Source: Alphaproteobacteria bacterium (GTDB lineage Bacteria > Pseudomonadota > Alphaproteobacteria > Micavibrionales > Micavibrionaceae). Taken from it: a DNA stretch of 64,000 nucleotides. Below the pieces are notes generated by a model that saw only the letters and a program-made list of their open reading frames with translations, made no database searches and was not told the origin of the DNA. The stretch lies in assembly GCA_021775965.1 (NCBI GenBank), contig JAJFGV010000014.1:1-64000 (forward strand), in the 5' to 3' direction. Positions within the stretch are counted from its first letter, which is position 1. The number at the start of each line of letters is the position of its first letter. Below, piece after piece: positions 15,609-19,747 of the stretch. The position numbers and the translations under genes are program-made.

Positions 15609-16991
15609 TTAGCGGGTGAATAAAAAAATATCACTTATGTTAGCAAATACCACGATTCCCACCAAAAAAGCTAGCCCTAAGGCAAAAGCATAGTCCTGAA
15701 ACCGTTGCGATAATGGCTTCCCTGCCACCGCCTCATAAGCTAAAAACGCAAGGTAGCCGCCATCCAGCAGCGGAATAGGAAACAAATTCACCAGCCCGAT
15801 CTGAAAAGACAAAACAGCAATAAACACCAAAAATGTGTACCAGCCGGAATCGACGGCTTTTTCCGCCGCTTGTCCCATTGTTCCGATGCCGCCAATGCTG
15901 TCCCGTCGGGCGCCGCCACTAAACACCAGCTCCATAACCTTATAAGCCTCTATAGACAGCACTTTCATCTGTTTCGCGGCAGAGACCAACGCAAAGGGCA
16001 CTCCCCGGTAAACATAGAATTTTTCCTTGCTGATCCCGGTATAGAATTTATCATAATCCTCGTCCTTTGGATCATTAAGCCCTTCATTCATGTTTGTGGG
16101 CACGCGGATCAAAAAGATATCGCTCTTGTCATCATCAAACGCAGCAACACCAAGGCGCAGCTCCTGATCAAGATGAGTTGCTATCTCCTGGCGAGCTCTG
16201 TCGATATCACCATCCACATCCACCCCGTTGACGGACGTAATATCCTTATATTCCAGCGCGCGAATATGGGTAGCCCCCAGCCGCCCATGCGCGCGGTTCA
16301 TCCCCTTTGTGTCCTTGTAATCAATAGGCCGGGACGCGGCTGTCATGGTGATCGTCTGCTCACCACGCTTCACCGTAAAATCATATTCCTGGCCGATATT
16401 GGGCTTGGTCAGCGCCCAAATATCTTCAAATCGGGTAATCTTGCGGCCGTCAATCGCTGTAATCTCGTCCAGCGGCTGAAACCCGGCCTCATAACCCGAT
16501 GTCCCCATCGCCACCGCCGTCACAATCGGCAGCGTTGAACCTTGCCCTTTGGTTGAGAAAAGGGCTGCAAGTATCAGAAATGTAAAAATAAAATTGATTA
16601 CAGGACCAGCCGCTATAATCACCGCGCGCTTCCAGAGCGCTCTGGTATAAAAAGCGACCTCCGTCTCTTCTTTCGTGAGCTTTCTGATTTTTTCCGTCTC
16701 GGCATCCCAGATTTTGGGGTCGTCACGGTTCACATCGCCAAAAATTTTGACATAGCCACCCAACGGCAACAGCGAAAGCGACCACCTCGTGCCGCGTTTG
16801 TCCGTGCGGCCATAGAGCTCATGGCCAAAGCCAATAGAGAATTTATCGATCCGCACACCAAACACCCGCGCCGCGCTGTAATGCCCCAGCTCATGCACAA
16901 AGACAACAAAGCTGATGCTGAAAAATAGCGCAAAGACATACAGAAAGACATTGCCCGCAAAAACGTCAGAAAGCTGAAAAAAGGATTCCAT
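15609..16991 (-). CDS. rseP: RseP-family site-2 zinc metalloprotease, copy 1 (bamA-proximal)
   Basis: Intramembrane protease of the M50B family, expected to cleave membrane-bound anti-sigma factors or signal peptides. 460 residues. The zinc motif HELGH is at residues 33-37 in the first membrane helix and the third ligand lies in FPIPLLDGGYL at about 405-415, so it looks active. A PDZ domain (TSGYEAGFQPLDEITAIDG) is followed by a second, weaker PDZ-like stretch. It is a paralogue of the gene at 18362-19747, with the same length and organisation but clearly diverged. The dxr-rseP-bamA order seen in relatives normally has one rseP. Confidence 0.92.
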   Translation of the reverse strand: MESFFQLSDVFAGNVFLYVFALFFSISFVVFVHELGHYSAARVFGVRIDKFSIGFGHELYGRTDKRGTRWSLSLLPLGGYVKIFGDVNRDDPKIWDAETEKIRKLTKEETEVAFYTRALWKRAVIIAAGPVINFIFTFLILAALFSTKGQGSTLPIVTAVAMGTSGYEAGFQPLDEITAIDGRKITRFEDIWALTKPNIGQEYDFTVKRGEQTITMTAASRPIDYKDTKGMNRAHGRLGATHIRALEYKDITSVNGVDVDGDIDRARQEIATHLDQELRLGVAAFDDDKSDIFLIRVPTNMNEGLNDPKDEDYDKFYTGISKEKFYVYRGVPFALVSAAKQMKVLSIEAYKVMELVFSGGARRDSIGGIGTMGQAAEKAVDSGWYTFLVFIAVLSFQIGLVNLFPIPLLDGGYLAFLAYEAVAGKPLSQRFQDYAFALGLAFLVGIVVFANISDIFLFTR

Positions 16992-17028
16992 ACCGCCCCA
17001 TCACACTTAATTATCTATCCAAAATACT

Positions 17029-17115
17029 CCCCTCTCCCTTGAGGGAGAGGGCAACGAAGCCCGGCTTTTCCGCAGGAAAAACCGCCGGCTGAGTGGGTGA
17101 GGGTTTAAAATCCCT
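17029..17115. repeat. Dispersed-type palindromic repeat (CCCTCTCCC...GGGAGAGGG)
   Basis: A near-perfect palindrome CCCTCTCCCTTGAGGGAGAG at 17030-17049 is followed by GAAGCCCGGCTTTTCCGC and a GGGTGAGGG tail. This type of sequence resembles dispersed intergenic repeats of many proteobacterial genomes. No coding potential is evident. Together with the next element it fills the 306-base gap downstream of the HTH gene and upstream of rseP copy 1. Copy number cannot be judged from one window. Confidence 0.5.
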
Positions 17116-17140
17116 GCTCTTGCCCCGCCACTATCTAATC

Positions 17141-17242
17141 GTCATCCCGGCGCCCTGTCACGCCGTAGCCCACAGGGCGTAGGCGGAAGGCCGGGACCTT
17201 ACACACACAAAGCAAGAAGATCCCGCTCTTCAGCGGGATGAC
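17141..17242. repeat. Palindromic repeat element with GTCATCCCG ends
   Basis: A 102-base element bounded by GTCATCCCG and CGGGATGAC. Inside are two nested hairpins: CGCCCTGT (17151-17158) with ACAGGGCG (17172-17179), and ATCCCGCT-CTTC-AGCGGGAT (about 17220-17239, an 8-base perfect stem). There is no T-run after it, so it is not a classical terminator. The form is that of a dispersed palindromic intergenic repeat. Confidence 0.6.
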
Positions 17243-17297
17243 ACTCTCTTAATCTTCAGTATAGCGGTTTTTTGAACGCGGTGCAGCAGCCATGTAA

Positions 17298-17939
17298 TTA
17301 TAGAGCTAGACTTTCCTCTGCGTTTTTAACCTTCCGCCCCTTATGATGATGGTGCGGCTTTTTCAACATGGCTTGTTTCTCTTTATAAAGATTAAACCGG
17401 GTTTGAAAACCCATGAGTTCTTCAGCGGTGTATTTAGAAAAGATGTTTGAAAGCTTAATTGCTACCCTGGGACTAAGAGGAGCCTTCTCTTTTGTCAGAT
17501 CGTCTAAAGTTTGCTGACAAATGTCAATTTGTAGTGCTACAGCGTGAACGTTGGTACTAGCCGCATCAATTAATTCCTTTTTAATTATCGACCCCGGATG
17601 CGGCGGCACATCCTCTGATTTTCTTTCAGTGATATCTTTTTTTGCCTGAAGCTTTTGCTTCGAATGATATTTGTATTGATTAAATCTCAATTGGAACAAA
17701 AGAAGTTCGTCTTCAGTATATTCGGAAAAATAAGCGGCAAACTTAGCAGCAATATCATTGCTTACTGGTCTTTCACATTTTACAACGTAATTAAGCATTT
17801 GACGGTTTGCTCCAATTTTGGAGGCAGCCGCATAAACACTCAGCCCTTGGCCTTTTATCACCTTAAGCATTAATGAACCCGGATGCTGTGGCAGTTTTTC
17901 TGCCACATCTCCAAATGTCATCTTATGTTCTTTTGCCAT
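17298..17939 (-). CDS. Tandem HigA-like (XRE family) helix-turn-helix protein, orphan
   Basis: 213 residues made of two copies of one module. Copy 1 (about 13-95) starts QHPGSLMLKVIKGQGLSVYA; copy 2 (about 113-193) starts PHPGSIIKKELIDAASTNVH. Each is a HigA-type XRE domain (HPGS...helices...RPVS-IA-K-A) followed by a shared YTxEELxxFQxRFNxYK tail. The C-terminus is basic and His-rich. The second helix-turn-helix is less canonical than the first. HigA proteins are antitoxins and autorepressors, but no HigB-like toxin is adjacent. A perfect inverted repeat lies in its promoter. It sits between two rseP paralogues, flanked by dispersed repeats, suggesting acquisition. Function beyond DNA binding is unknown. 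Confidence 0.75.
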   Translation of the reverse strand: MAKEHKMTFGDVAEKLPQHPGSLMLKVIKGQGLSVYAAASKIGANRQMLNYVVKCERPVSNDIAAKFAAYFSEYTEDELLLFQLRFNQYKYHSKQKLQAKKDITERKSEDVPPHPGSIIKKELIDAASTNVHAVALQIDICQQTLDDLTKEKAPLSPRVAIKLSNIFSKYTAEELMGFQTRFNLYKEKQAMLKKPHHHHKGRKVKNAEESLAL

Positions 17940-17981
17940 TATACTCTTGCTCTCATTTTTCCATAGTTCATTATTTGCCGT

Positions 17982-18010
17982 AATAAAACAGCTTTTGATG
18001 TTTTATGCAA
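17982..18010 (-). promoter_or_regulatory. Promoter and candidate operator of the tandem HTH gene
   Basis: On the minus strand TTGCAT (18005-18010) precedes TTTATT (17982-17987) by 17 bases. A perfect 8-base inverted repeat ATAAAACA-N8-TGTTTTAT (17983-18006) fills the spacer and -10, about 45 bases before the ATG at 17939. This is where an autorepressor would bind. It is inferred from symmetry and position only. Confidence 0.55.
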
Positions 18011-18078
18011 GAAAATTCTACGTCCGGAATAACAGCAGAAAAAGCCTCCGCCCCTCTGAATCTCCGCGTTTAAAACCC

Positions 18079-18107
18079 TTGACAAATTAGGATATATTTC
18101 CTATAAT
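18079..18107 (+). promoter_or_regulatory. Consensus sigma-70 promoter with palindromic operator, no intact gene downstream
   Basis: TTGACA (18079-18084), a 17-base spacer and TATAAT (18102-18107) make a perfect consensus promoter. The spacer contains TAGGATATATTTCCTA (18088-18103), an inverted repeat of the kind found at toxin-antitoxin promoters bound by XRE antitoxins. It points right, towards an ATG at 18114 whose frame soon enters a palindromic repeat. No intact plus-strand gene follows before rseP copy 2, which is on the other strand. It is probably a relic promoter. Confidence 0.65.
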
Positions 18108-18113
18108 ATCTAC

Positions 18114-18218
18114 ATGAAAAAGACATACACAAAAACATCGTCATTGCGAAGCCCTTGGGCTGAAGCAATCCAGAGCCACAAGAAAAAGGCTGGATTGCTT
18201 CGCGTTCGCTCGCAATGA
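18114..18218 (+). pseudogene. 34-codon frame interrupted by a palindromic repeat (relic reading frame)
   Basis: ATG at 18114 lies 6 bases after the -10 box of a consensus promoter and starts MKKTYTKTSS, but from codon 9 onward the frame is the palindromic element 18139-18220 and ends inside it. No Shine-Dalgarno sequence is seen. The likeliest reading is that the start of a small gene (perhaps a toxin, given the operator) was destroyed by repeat insertion. It could also be chance. Low confidence as a gene. Confidence 0.3.
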
Positions 18219-18220
18219 CG
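18139..18220. repeat. Palindromic repeat with CGTCATTGCG / CGCAATGACG ends
   Basis: An 82-base imperfect palindrome: the outer arms CGTCATTGCG and CGCAATGACG are perfect, and inner arms GAAGCAATCCAG and CTGGATTGCTTCG also pair, around an A-rich loop. Elements with these ends are widespread dispersed repeats in proteobacterial genomes, including Rickettsia and relatives. The 422-base gap between the HTH gene and rseP copy 2 holds this repeat, the promoter before it and a short gene remnant after it. Confidence 0.75.
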
Positions 18221-18334
18221 GTAAAAAGCAATATGAAAACGTGTTTTCTGCGAAACAAACTATTAAGGAGACATAACACGGGGTACCCCCACCCCAAAAT
18301 TTGCGACCGAACTAAAGGAAACGGGCTTTTTAAA

Positions 18335-18361
18335 ATGAAATCAGGAGGTTATATATACAAA
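18335..18361 (+). pseudogene. Possible 5' remnant of a GIY-YIG nuclease-like gene
   Basis: The codons at 18335 read MKSGGYIYK, closely resembling the start of small GIY-YIG family proteins (commonly MK-GGYVYI-TN...). The resemblance stops exactly where the rseP copy 2 stop codon begins (18362). An upstream leader GGGTACCCCCACCCC is also unlike coding DNA. I read it as a truncated gene end at a recombination point. Only nine codons support it. Confidence 0.3.
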
Positions 18362-19747
18362 TTACAAAATGAGCTGCATCAAATCATTCAAATTGGCAAA
18401 CACCATGATCCCCACCAAAAACGTCAGGCCCAACCGGAATGCATATTCCTGGATCTGATCCGGCACTGGCTTGCCCAAAATGACCTCAAAGGCATAGAAC
18501 AACAAATGCCCGCCATCGAGCAGCGGAATGGGAAACAGGTTAATCAACCCCAAATTGATCGAGAGCAGCGCCATAAACAAAATAATGGCAATGAGCCCCT
18601 TCTCCGCCATATCACCGGCCAGCGCGCCGATGCGGATAATCCCGCCAAGCTCTGTGGCACTGCGGCTGCCCATGATCATCTGACCGAGCGCCTCCAGCGT
18701 GCCTGTGGTAATCGAAGCAGTTTCCTTGACCGATTGAACAAAAGCACTAATCGGCCCATGCTTTACAAATATATTGGCCTCCTGCCCGGCCAGAAACAAA
18801 ATTTCGTAATTCTCATTCTCCGGATCACGCAAAGCGCCATTGTTATCACTCAACGGCTTTACCGTCAGGCTATCAATCTTTGGTCCACGCTCGATCTCAA
18901 TGACAAAACTCGTATCCAGTTTTTTCAACAAGGCGGCGCGCATAGCTTCAACGTCTGTATAAGATTTGCCCTCTATCGTTTTGATATTGCTGATCTTAAG
19001 CGCGTGGCGTGGAGAGATAAGACCCAGCAAACCACGGCTGTTCTTAAAGCCAAAACGATCCTCAATCTCAATCTTTTTTGGTGACGCATGGATATCAATG
19101 ATCTGGCCATCGCGATCAATAACAAAATGTTTCTTATCATCCAGCGCAATCATCATCTGGCGGCGGATGTCTTCAAAGCTGTTAATCTGCTTGTCATCAA
19201 TGGAGACAATAATATCATGCGGTTCAAAGCCGTTTTCAGCCGCCGCGCTCTCGCCAATAATAGCAGCGGCCATAGGTGGCGTTACCGGCTGGCCGTTATA
19301 CATATAAAGTCCAGTGAGAATAACAATCGCAAAGATGTAATTGATGGCTGGCCCGGCAAAAACCACAGCCGCGCGCTTCCACACCGGCTGATTAAAGAAC
19401 GCCTCTTTTTTCTCGGCTTCCGTGAAGGGTTTAATTTTATCACTTTTGTCATCTTTGGTGCCCTCGGCGTGCTGAGCGCTGGCCGGGTCAACATCGCCAA
19501 ACAGCTTTACATAGCCGCCCAGCGGGATCAGCGAAAACTTCCAGCGCGTGCCGTGCTTGTCTGTGCGGCCCCACAATTCCTTGCCAAAGCCAATAGAAAA
19601 CGTTTCAACCCGCACGCCACAAAGCCGCGCAACAATGTAATGGCCCCACTCATGGACAAAAACCAGGATCGAAAGAACCAGCAAAAACGTCCCGCCATAA
19701 AGCCAGATATTGCCGCTCAAGGTCTGGAAAACTTCGTAAAAATTCAT
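18362..19747 (-). CDS. rseP: RseP-family site-2 zinc metalloprotease, copy 2 (dxr-proximal)
   Basis: Second M50B intramembrane protease, 461 residues. HEWGH at residues 32-36 gives the zinc ligands and catalytic Glu; FPIPLLDGGHLLFY near the C-terminus gives the third ligand. A PDZ domain (IGESAAAENGFEPHDIIVSID) lies in the middle. The start overlaps the dxr stop as ATGA, the usual coupling in relatives, so this copy is the best candidate for the ancestral rseP. It shares N-terminal (RxxGVRxxxFSIGFGxELxGRTDKxGTRW) and C-terminal blocks with the copy at 15609-16991. Substrates are unknown. Confidence 0.93.
   Translation of the reverse strand: MNFYEVFQTLSGNIWLYGGTFLLVLSILVFVHEWGHYIVARLCGVRVETFSIGFGKELWGRTDKHGTRWKFSLIPLGGYVKLFGDVDPASAQHAEGTKDDKSDKIKPFTEAEKKEAFFNQPVWKRAAVVFAGPAINYIFAIVILTGLYMYNGQPVTPPMAAAIIGESAAAENGFEPHDIIVSIDDKQINSFEDIRRQMMIALDDKKHFVIDRDGQIIDIHASPKKIEIEDRFGFKNSRGLLGLISPRHALKISNIKTIEGKSYTDVEAMRAALLKKLDTSFVIEIERGPKIDSLTVKPLSDNNGALRDPENENYEILFLAGQEANIFVKHGPISAFVQSVKETASITTGTLEALGQMIMGSRSATELGGIIRIGALAGDMAEKGLIAIILFMALLSINLGLINLFPIPLLDGGHLLFYAFEVILGKPVPDQIQEYAFRLGLTFLVGIMVFANLNDLMQLIL

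Follow-up and report, generated by a model that had tools for sequence, protein, structure and literature searches.

A toxin-less tandem HigA-like gene from the Micavibrionaceae encoding a putative DNA-binding regulator

The locus and its HigA-like gene

The window, that is the whole stretch of 64,000 nucleotides analysed (contig JAJFGV010000014.1, Micavibrionaceae), carries a gene for a two-module HigA-like protein, here termed P0001. It sits in a 1.37-kb gap between tandem rseP-like genes, within a gene order that, from the sequence, we take to be pyrH, frr, uppS, cdsA, dxr, rseP, the P0001 gene, rseP, bamA, skp and lpxD. HExxH is present in both of the flanking proteases.

18362..19747, minus strand: rseP-like M50 protease, copy 1, upstream flank (Pfam)
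17298..17939, minus strand: gene P0001, two-module HigA-like protein, 213 aa, ATG start
15609..16991, minus strand: rseP-like M50 protease, copy 2, downstream flank, sharing 37% identity with copy 1

In the related genomes G002 and G003 just 70-75 bp or so separate the two rseP genes, and the simplest account of the 1.37-kb gap is therefore that this lineage gained an insertion. It is low in G+C and rich in dispersed repeats, and the P0001 gene itself has a G+C content of 39.7% against 49.4% across the window. G002, G003, G007, G008, G027 and G030 likewise have a second rseP-like gene next to the first, and G001 has a single rseP match.

The original prediction, that two HigA-type modules are joined in one chain, is borne out by searches with TIGR02607 (antidote_HigA; curated cut-off 47.7 bits), the sole NCBIfam family matched by P0001. 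Two TIGR02607 stretches lie in a single frame and the whole protein scores 80.5 bits, above the cut-off; taken alone, the C half also lies above it (about 48.6-48.7 bits) and the N half under it (about 35.1-35.5 bits). The two copies align as helix-turn-helix (HTH) modules, a failure to do so having been set beforehand as a possible refutation. Both keep the HPG start and the HigA-type helices, and the 213-codon reading frame is unbroken and retains the HTH and the dimerisation helix of each module. Other collections return the family less directly: Pfam HTH_3 reaches 17.7 bits, short of its cut-off of 23, the PHROGs match is the counterpart phage family phrog_1381 (78.7 bits), and the PDB sequences of PaHigA, GraA and E. 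coli HigA match the C half weakly (best E 0.00064).

17691..17891, minus strand: N-terminal HigA module, TIGR02607 positions 4-70, E 2.6e-8
17775..17837, minus strand: HTH of the N module, residues 35-55
17670..17720, minus strand: repeated tail, copy 1, start of the N-module dimerisation helix, residues 74-90
17373..17606, minus strand: C-terminal HigA module, TIGR02607 positions 4-80, E 1.4e-12
17490..17549, minus strand: HTH of the C module, residues 131-150
17382..17432, minus strand: repeated tail, copy 2, C-module dimerisation helix, residues 170-186

A repeated tail had also been claimed, and it is present in both copies, as YTEDELLLFQLRFNQYK (74-90) and YTAEELMGFQTRFNLYK (170-186), with 11 of 17 residues identical; the motif proposed for it was slightly off, reading YTxEEL where the sequence has YTx[DE]EL. 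The further suggestion that the tail is a separate repeated module has to be given up, as it is instead the ordinary C-terminal helix (helix 5) of HigA, and in the alignment the YTxEELxxFQxRFNxYK tail sits where many canonical HigA rows have W-L-x-x-Q-x-x-Y-D-L. PaHigA is described as dimerising via helices 4 and 5 (PMC6987408). What both copies of P0001 have kept is what a HigA pair needs, and no new module.

The absence of an adjacent HigB, likewise part of the original prediction, is confirmed for the gap between the rseP genes, where no toxin-like ORF was found in the ORF list, by Pfam or by translation. Six-frame translation of 17930-18400 and 16985-17305 gave no toxin, nor did Pfam on 18070-18297, and the sole Rfam match was a tRNA. 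A decayed toxin operon behind the plus-strand promoter at 18079 was considered and rejected, this promoter being a copy of a dispersed element (see below). Genome-wide, toxins were sought with the PF05015 (HigB) profile, which matches at two places in this genome, each adjoining another HigA match. At C12 a HigB scoring 34.2 bits forms a higBA pair with its HigA, and at C120 a HigB-like sequence scoring 24.6 bits, below the cut-off of 27, adjoins a frame of 380 aa that has a HigA-like match. PF05015 matches HigB in three of the four genomes of the genus.

Predicted fold and origin of the modules

Modelled alone, without an alignment, P0001 gave an unusable AlphaFold model (pLDDT 40.8). The model made with an alignment has a mean pLDDT of 79.1, about 95 for the C module and about 73 for the N module; the 15 rows of this alignment, including 14 HigA sequences from viral contigs, span the C half only, so that the N module was predicted without relatives. 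Five helices are modelled in each module, those of the N module at residues 20-30, 35-42, 46-55, 61-70 and 76-109, the last being a long helix that takes in the dimerisation helix of the N module and extends into the linker. The pTM of 0.50 leaves the placement of the modules relative to each other tentative. HigA/GraA structures take the top Foldseek and VIA-align ranks for the C module (Foldseek E 2.9e-4), and VIA-align matches model residues 110-204 to the HigA chains 3trb/3cec with Z up to 14.5 over 90 residues (rmsd 3.1). The VIA-align rows cover almost only residues 110-204 and barely probe the N module, for which one PDB row is found among those listed, the HTH protein 3pxp (Z 8.3 over 17-98). 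The C module is predicted to have the five-helix XRE-type HigA fold; for the N module five helices are predicted too, with a weaker case for the HigA fold than in the C module.

The two halves are 38% identical over 84 columns, against 31-32% for the next best, and one-sequence profiles of the halves are reciprocal best matches at 51.8 and 52.3 bits, the runners-up scoring 39.7 and 30.5. They are sisters in a tree (support 94/87) from which a broken row (L003), a row cut by a contig end (L004) and a near-copy of L063 (L064) had been removed, and they remain sisters when the genes of sister species are omitted (94/95). Since the halves are closest to each other by identity, by reciprocal score (about 52 bits) and by tree position, P0001 appears to have arisen through internal duplication of one HigA module, and a fusion of two unrelated HigAs was rejected for the same reason. 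With an end branch of 4.2, the N module has diverged strongly. Identity between the C module and the HigA of C12 is 32%, and this HigA falls outside the N module's eight closest rows.

Single HigA-like genes without an adjoining toxin ORF occur in two sister species, L005 in G001 and L008 in G003 (Micavibrio sp. DHS20C02), with TIGR02607 scores of 64.3 and 39.9 bits, respectively. A one-residue insertion before the dimerisation helix is found in four of 28 alignment rows, namely the two modules of P0001 and these toxin-less genes, and extra residues are present at the same site in five of 14 viral HigA rows. The P0001 modules group with the toxin-less genes in two trees (support 74/83 and 85/79, the latter, like the 94/95 tree, made without L140), and the grouping is lost once long branches are removed (10% of bootstraps). 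A kinship is suggested by these alignments, though it is not robust. The A2 profile was made from the same four sequences (G000, which is this genome, G001 and G003), whose high scores follow by construction, and in a search of 104 genomes it found nothing above 55 bits beyond these three sources. Judged by their sequences, L005 and L008 show that toxin-less HigA-like genes persist in the genus; as single genes in G001 and G003 they are at best candidate orthologs of P0001 and would be its putative cases of conservation across species.

A second tandem HigA was not found in any collection searched. TIGR02607 matches 42 of 142 genomes of the order and P0001 itself matches 33 of 385 genomes of the class, with both halves spanned in this genome only; a comparison of P0001 with 58 relatives gave no further tandem. 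None of the 83 stretches retrieved from genome contigs of the species collection is a relative, nor is any of the 18 from viral contigs, and tblastn against phages returned two records, both of a single module. Among 107 plasmid records found by tblastn none covers 80% of P0001, and in the best of them (76% coverage) both pieces fall in one 249-bp stretch, so that, judging by the coordinates, one HigA was matched twice. Two adjacent TIGR02607 rows at C37 of this genome were rejected as one broken HigA copy in two frames; L003 (C37:2313-2562) is a decaying HigA gene with a stop/frameshift, downstream of a heavy-metal-ATPase-like frame. The genome collections yielded no ortholog of P0001, and the titles and abstracts retrieved on HigA, on orphan, solitary or domesticated antitoxins and on Micavibrio toxin-antitoxin systems mention no tandem HigA. 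Protein-pattern scans of this kind reach close relatives only, and divergent tandems could escape them.

The upstream palindrome and the dispersed element

Two features lie upstream of the P0001 gene, a palindrome and a dispersed promoter element.

17983..18006: palindrome ATAAAACA-N8-TGTTTTAT, candidate (auto)operator, 44-67 bp upstream of the ATG
18068..18343, plus strand: dispersed element, head-to-head with the P0001 gene, promoter 18079-18107, leaderless ATG 18114

The promoter repeat claimed at the outset is present, exactly as given. At up to two mismatches this particular sequence is expected by chance 0.06 times per window. A fairer null allows any perfect arm of at least 8 with a spacer of 4-16 bp in dinucleotide shuffles of the 129 bp of upstream DNA, and here a comparable inverted repeat arose in 103 of 3000 shuffles; the whole 1.37-kb gap has eight such repeats, two of them forming one overlapping site. 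The palindrome is genuine, but it stands out from chance expectation only by a small margin. No second exact copy was found in the four genus genomes, near-matches (up to two mismatches) in this genome number five as against five in the reversed control, and no minus-strand sigma-70-like promoter was found at the scan threshold.

The centres of the two palindrome arms lie 16 bp, or about 1.5 turns, from each other, a spacing unlike that of the TTAACGTTAA-type sites described for PaHigA and GraA (PMC6987408, PMC6393540), the HTHs of a GraA dimer being reported to lie 35 Å apart, about one turn (PMC6393540). By analogy, this spacing would weigh against a simple built-in dimer on the palindrome at 17983-18006. 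The predicted recognition helices also appear to weigh against it. PaHigA is reported to depend on T40, D43 and R49 for specific binding (PMC6987408). In the alignment the N module replaces T40 by M48, D43 by Y51 and R46 by K54 and keeps R49 as R57, and the C module keeps T40 as T144 and D43 as D147 and replaces R46 by K150 and R49 by A153 (R57 and A153 lie just beyond the HTH coordinates listed above). Two of the three base-reading residues of PaHigA are lost in the N module and one in the C module. The two HTHs, with M, Y, R and T, D, A at these positions, are therefore not equivalent, and non-equivalent HTHs are not what a symmetric palindrome calls for.

The element beside the gene includes an inserted palindromic repeat and a remnant 3' module. 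Its promoter is of the sigma-70 type (TTGACA-17-TATAAT, 12/12) with TAGGA-N6-TCCTA in the spacer, and carries TAGGATATATTTCCTA. Copies of the pattern with at most one mismatch number 30 in this genome, 26 in G001, 25 in G003 and 10 in G002 (control 0), and exact matches occur in 36 of 104 family genomes (control 0). A stricter pattern, applied to the species collection, was found only in Micavibrio sp. DHS20C02 (10 of 11 stretches) and in the alphaproteobacterial MAG OFTM66. The consensus is TTGACA-N4-AGGA-N6-TCCT-ATAAT, a near-consensus promoter with a leaderless ATG that is enriched in the genus (loci L022-L051 and L071-L100 in G000, G001, G002 and G003; L168-L171 outside the genus). At three of the four loci read outside the genus (L168, L169 and L171) the element begins a leaderless two-gene unit encoding a protein of 136-176 aa and one of 109-137 aa with an STGPKT..GK..S..NA.KHG-like motif, neither with a Pfam family above cut-off. 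The copies within the genus look decayed and have palindromic repeats inserted. Some of them adjoin one particular gene in more than one species, two or three within the genus (L071, L088 and L044; L073, L095 and L027; L079 and L093; L166, L140 and L008), so that these copies are old and positionally conserved; the genes are presumably hemF, pheS, dus and ispG, respectively, as named from sequence. The element is directed into the gene at hemF and is antisense to the end of the gene at ispG.

A HigA-like gene stands head-to-head with the element here and at the ispG locus of G003 and G001; at ispG in this genome the element is kept and the HigA-like gene is absent. The ispG genes of the two sister species, L140 1147-1455 (G001; 20.7 bits to TIGR02607) and L008 1492-1842 (G003), are different and very divergent, a pattern suggestive of fast turnover, at a single locus, of HigA-like genes lacking a toxin. 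A small gene at L089 1550-1867 (G001 C19), XRE-like by a look at its sequence (106 aa), ends beside an element copy. HTH_3 and element positions were compared by eye in the four genus genomes, and a link between HigA-like genes and the element is a lead.

Possible roles and comparison with known systems

HigA repressors act as pairs of dimers. The reading that we favour is that P0001 is an intact, toxin-less member of the XRE-fold HigA family, internally duplicated, which would act as a DNA-binding repressor independent of any toxin and would probably repress itself; we see this reading as evenly poised between right and wrong. Each module would end in a HigA dimerisation helix, with a short helical linker tying the two together, so that a single chain would provide the pair of HTHs present in an ordinary HigA dimer. 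Alternatively, two chains would supply four, the number that two GraA or PaHigA dimers are reported to place on their operators (PMC6393540, PMC6987408). The targets of repression by P0001 would probably be its own promoter, the site of the candidate palindrome, and perhaps a small number of further genes. PaHigA is described as acting beyond higBA, on mvfR (PMC6987408), and so offers a precedent for a regulon of the HigA type.

Rather than having lost its antitoxin role, as the favoured reading supposes, P0001 might still neutralise a HigB/RelE-type toxin encoded elsewhere, possibly as an anti-addiction factor against higBA plasmids or phages. Such a role in trans seems rather unlikely to us. 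Both modules retain the HPG start and helices of the HigA type, C12 of this genome does encode a higBA pair and C120 a HigB-like gene of lower score, and orphan HigA genes are reported to be common in marine genomes (PMC12654330), but each of the HigB-like genes already has a HigA match alongside, and the HigA of C12 is 32% identical to the C module and absent from the eight rows closest to the N module. A further possibility is that P0001 is a remnant, a higBA locus minus its toxin that was brought with repeats between the rseP genes and is now drifting. The insertion is missing from the compared sister genomes G002 and G003, it is poor in G+C and full of dispersed repeats, and the N module has diverged far; a lineage-specific gene that is low in G+C and adjoined by repeats could have been gained recently and neutrally. 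Against this, drift is not expected to leave two modules at 38% identity without stops, and an intact 213-codon frame in which both HTHs and dimerisation helices are kept would argue for selection rather than decay. We consider the remnant, too, improbable.

P0001 might instead regulate the neighbouring element, a HigA pair binding TAGGA-N6-TCCTA in the promoter spacer. The half-sites are 10 bp apart, which would fit one dimer of the GraA type (35 Å; PMC6393540), the motif exceeds its control by far in all four genus genomes, and the head-to-head arrangement recurs at ispG. However, the two ispG cases represent one ancestral locus and the association was noticed post hoc. Moreover, G002 has ten copies of the motif although the sole HigA match found there is paired with a toxin, the motif occurs in 36 of 104 family genomes whereas A2-profile matches above 55 bits are confined to G000, G001 and G003, and L005, the higher-scoring HigA-like gene of G001, has no adjoining element. 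This leaves the proposal with a slim prospect. The prospect is slimmer still for its broadest form, in which a HigA module was duplicated into a toxin-free single-chain pseudo-dimer and recruited, genus-wide, as the repressor of some 10-30 dispersed near-consensus promoters per genome, each with AGGA-N6-TCCT in its -35/-10 spacer and one of them head-to-head with the P0001 gene.

Antitoxins have often been proposed as raw material for ordinary regulators. If P0001 is a natural, toxin-free covalent HigA pair, it would allow a direct test of whether linked modules can replace dimerisation, and would bear in the same way on the divergence of recognition helices (at PaHigA positions 40, 43 and 49) and on whether repression persists after toxin loss. 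The wider meaning is limited because this is one gene in one species, with a putative function.

Among known systems, P0001 most resembles the HigA of type II HigBA modules (TIGR02607; PaHigA 6jpi, GraA 6f8h, Proteus vulgaris HigA 6chv), with which it shares the five-helix module, the N-terminal HPG, the XRE HTH, the C-terminal dimerisation helix and a whole-protein score above the family cut-off. It differs from them in having two modules in 213 aa rather than one in about 100 aa, in having no HigB beside it and in carrying other residues at the base-reading positions of PaHigA. In lacking a partner toxin it is like the orphan HigA antitoxins, HigA-1 being reported as one of the most frequent orphan antitoxins in marine MAGs (PMC12654330), but those orphan genes are mostly 200-500 bp long and the available text of that source mentions no tandem fusion. 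L005 and L008 share with it the HigA family, the lack of an adjoining toxin and the one-residue insertion, but are single modules at other loci. From its sequence, the P0001 gene is best regarded as a tandem HigA that lacks a toxin, an atypical form within a widespread family, and most likely encodes a self-contained DNA-binding regulator.
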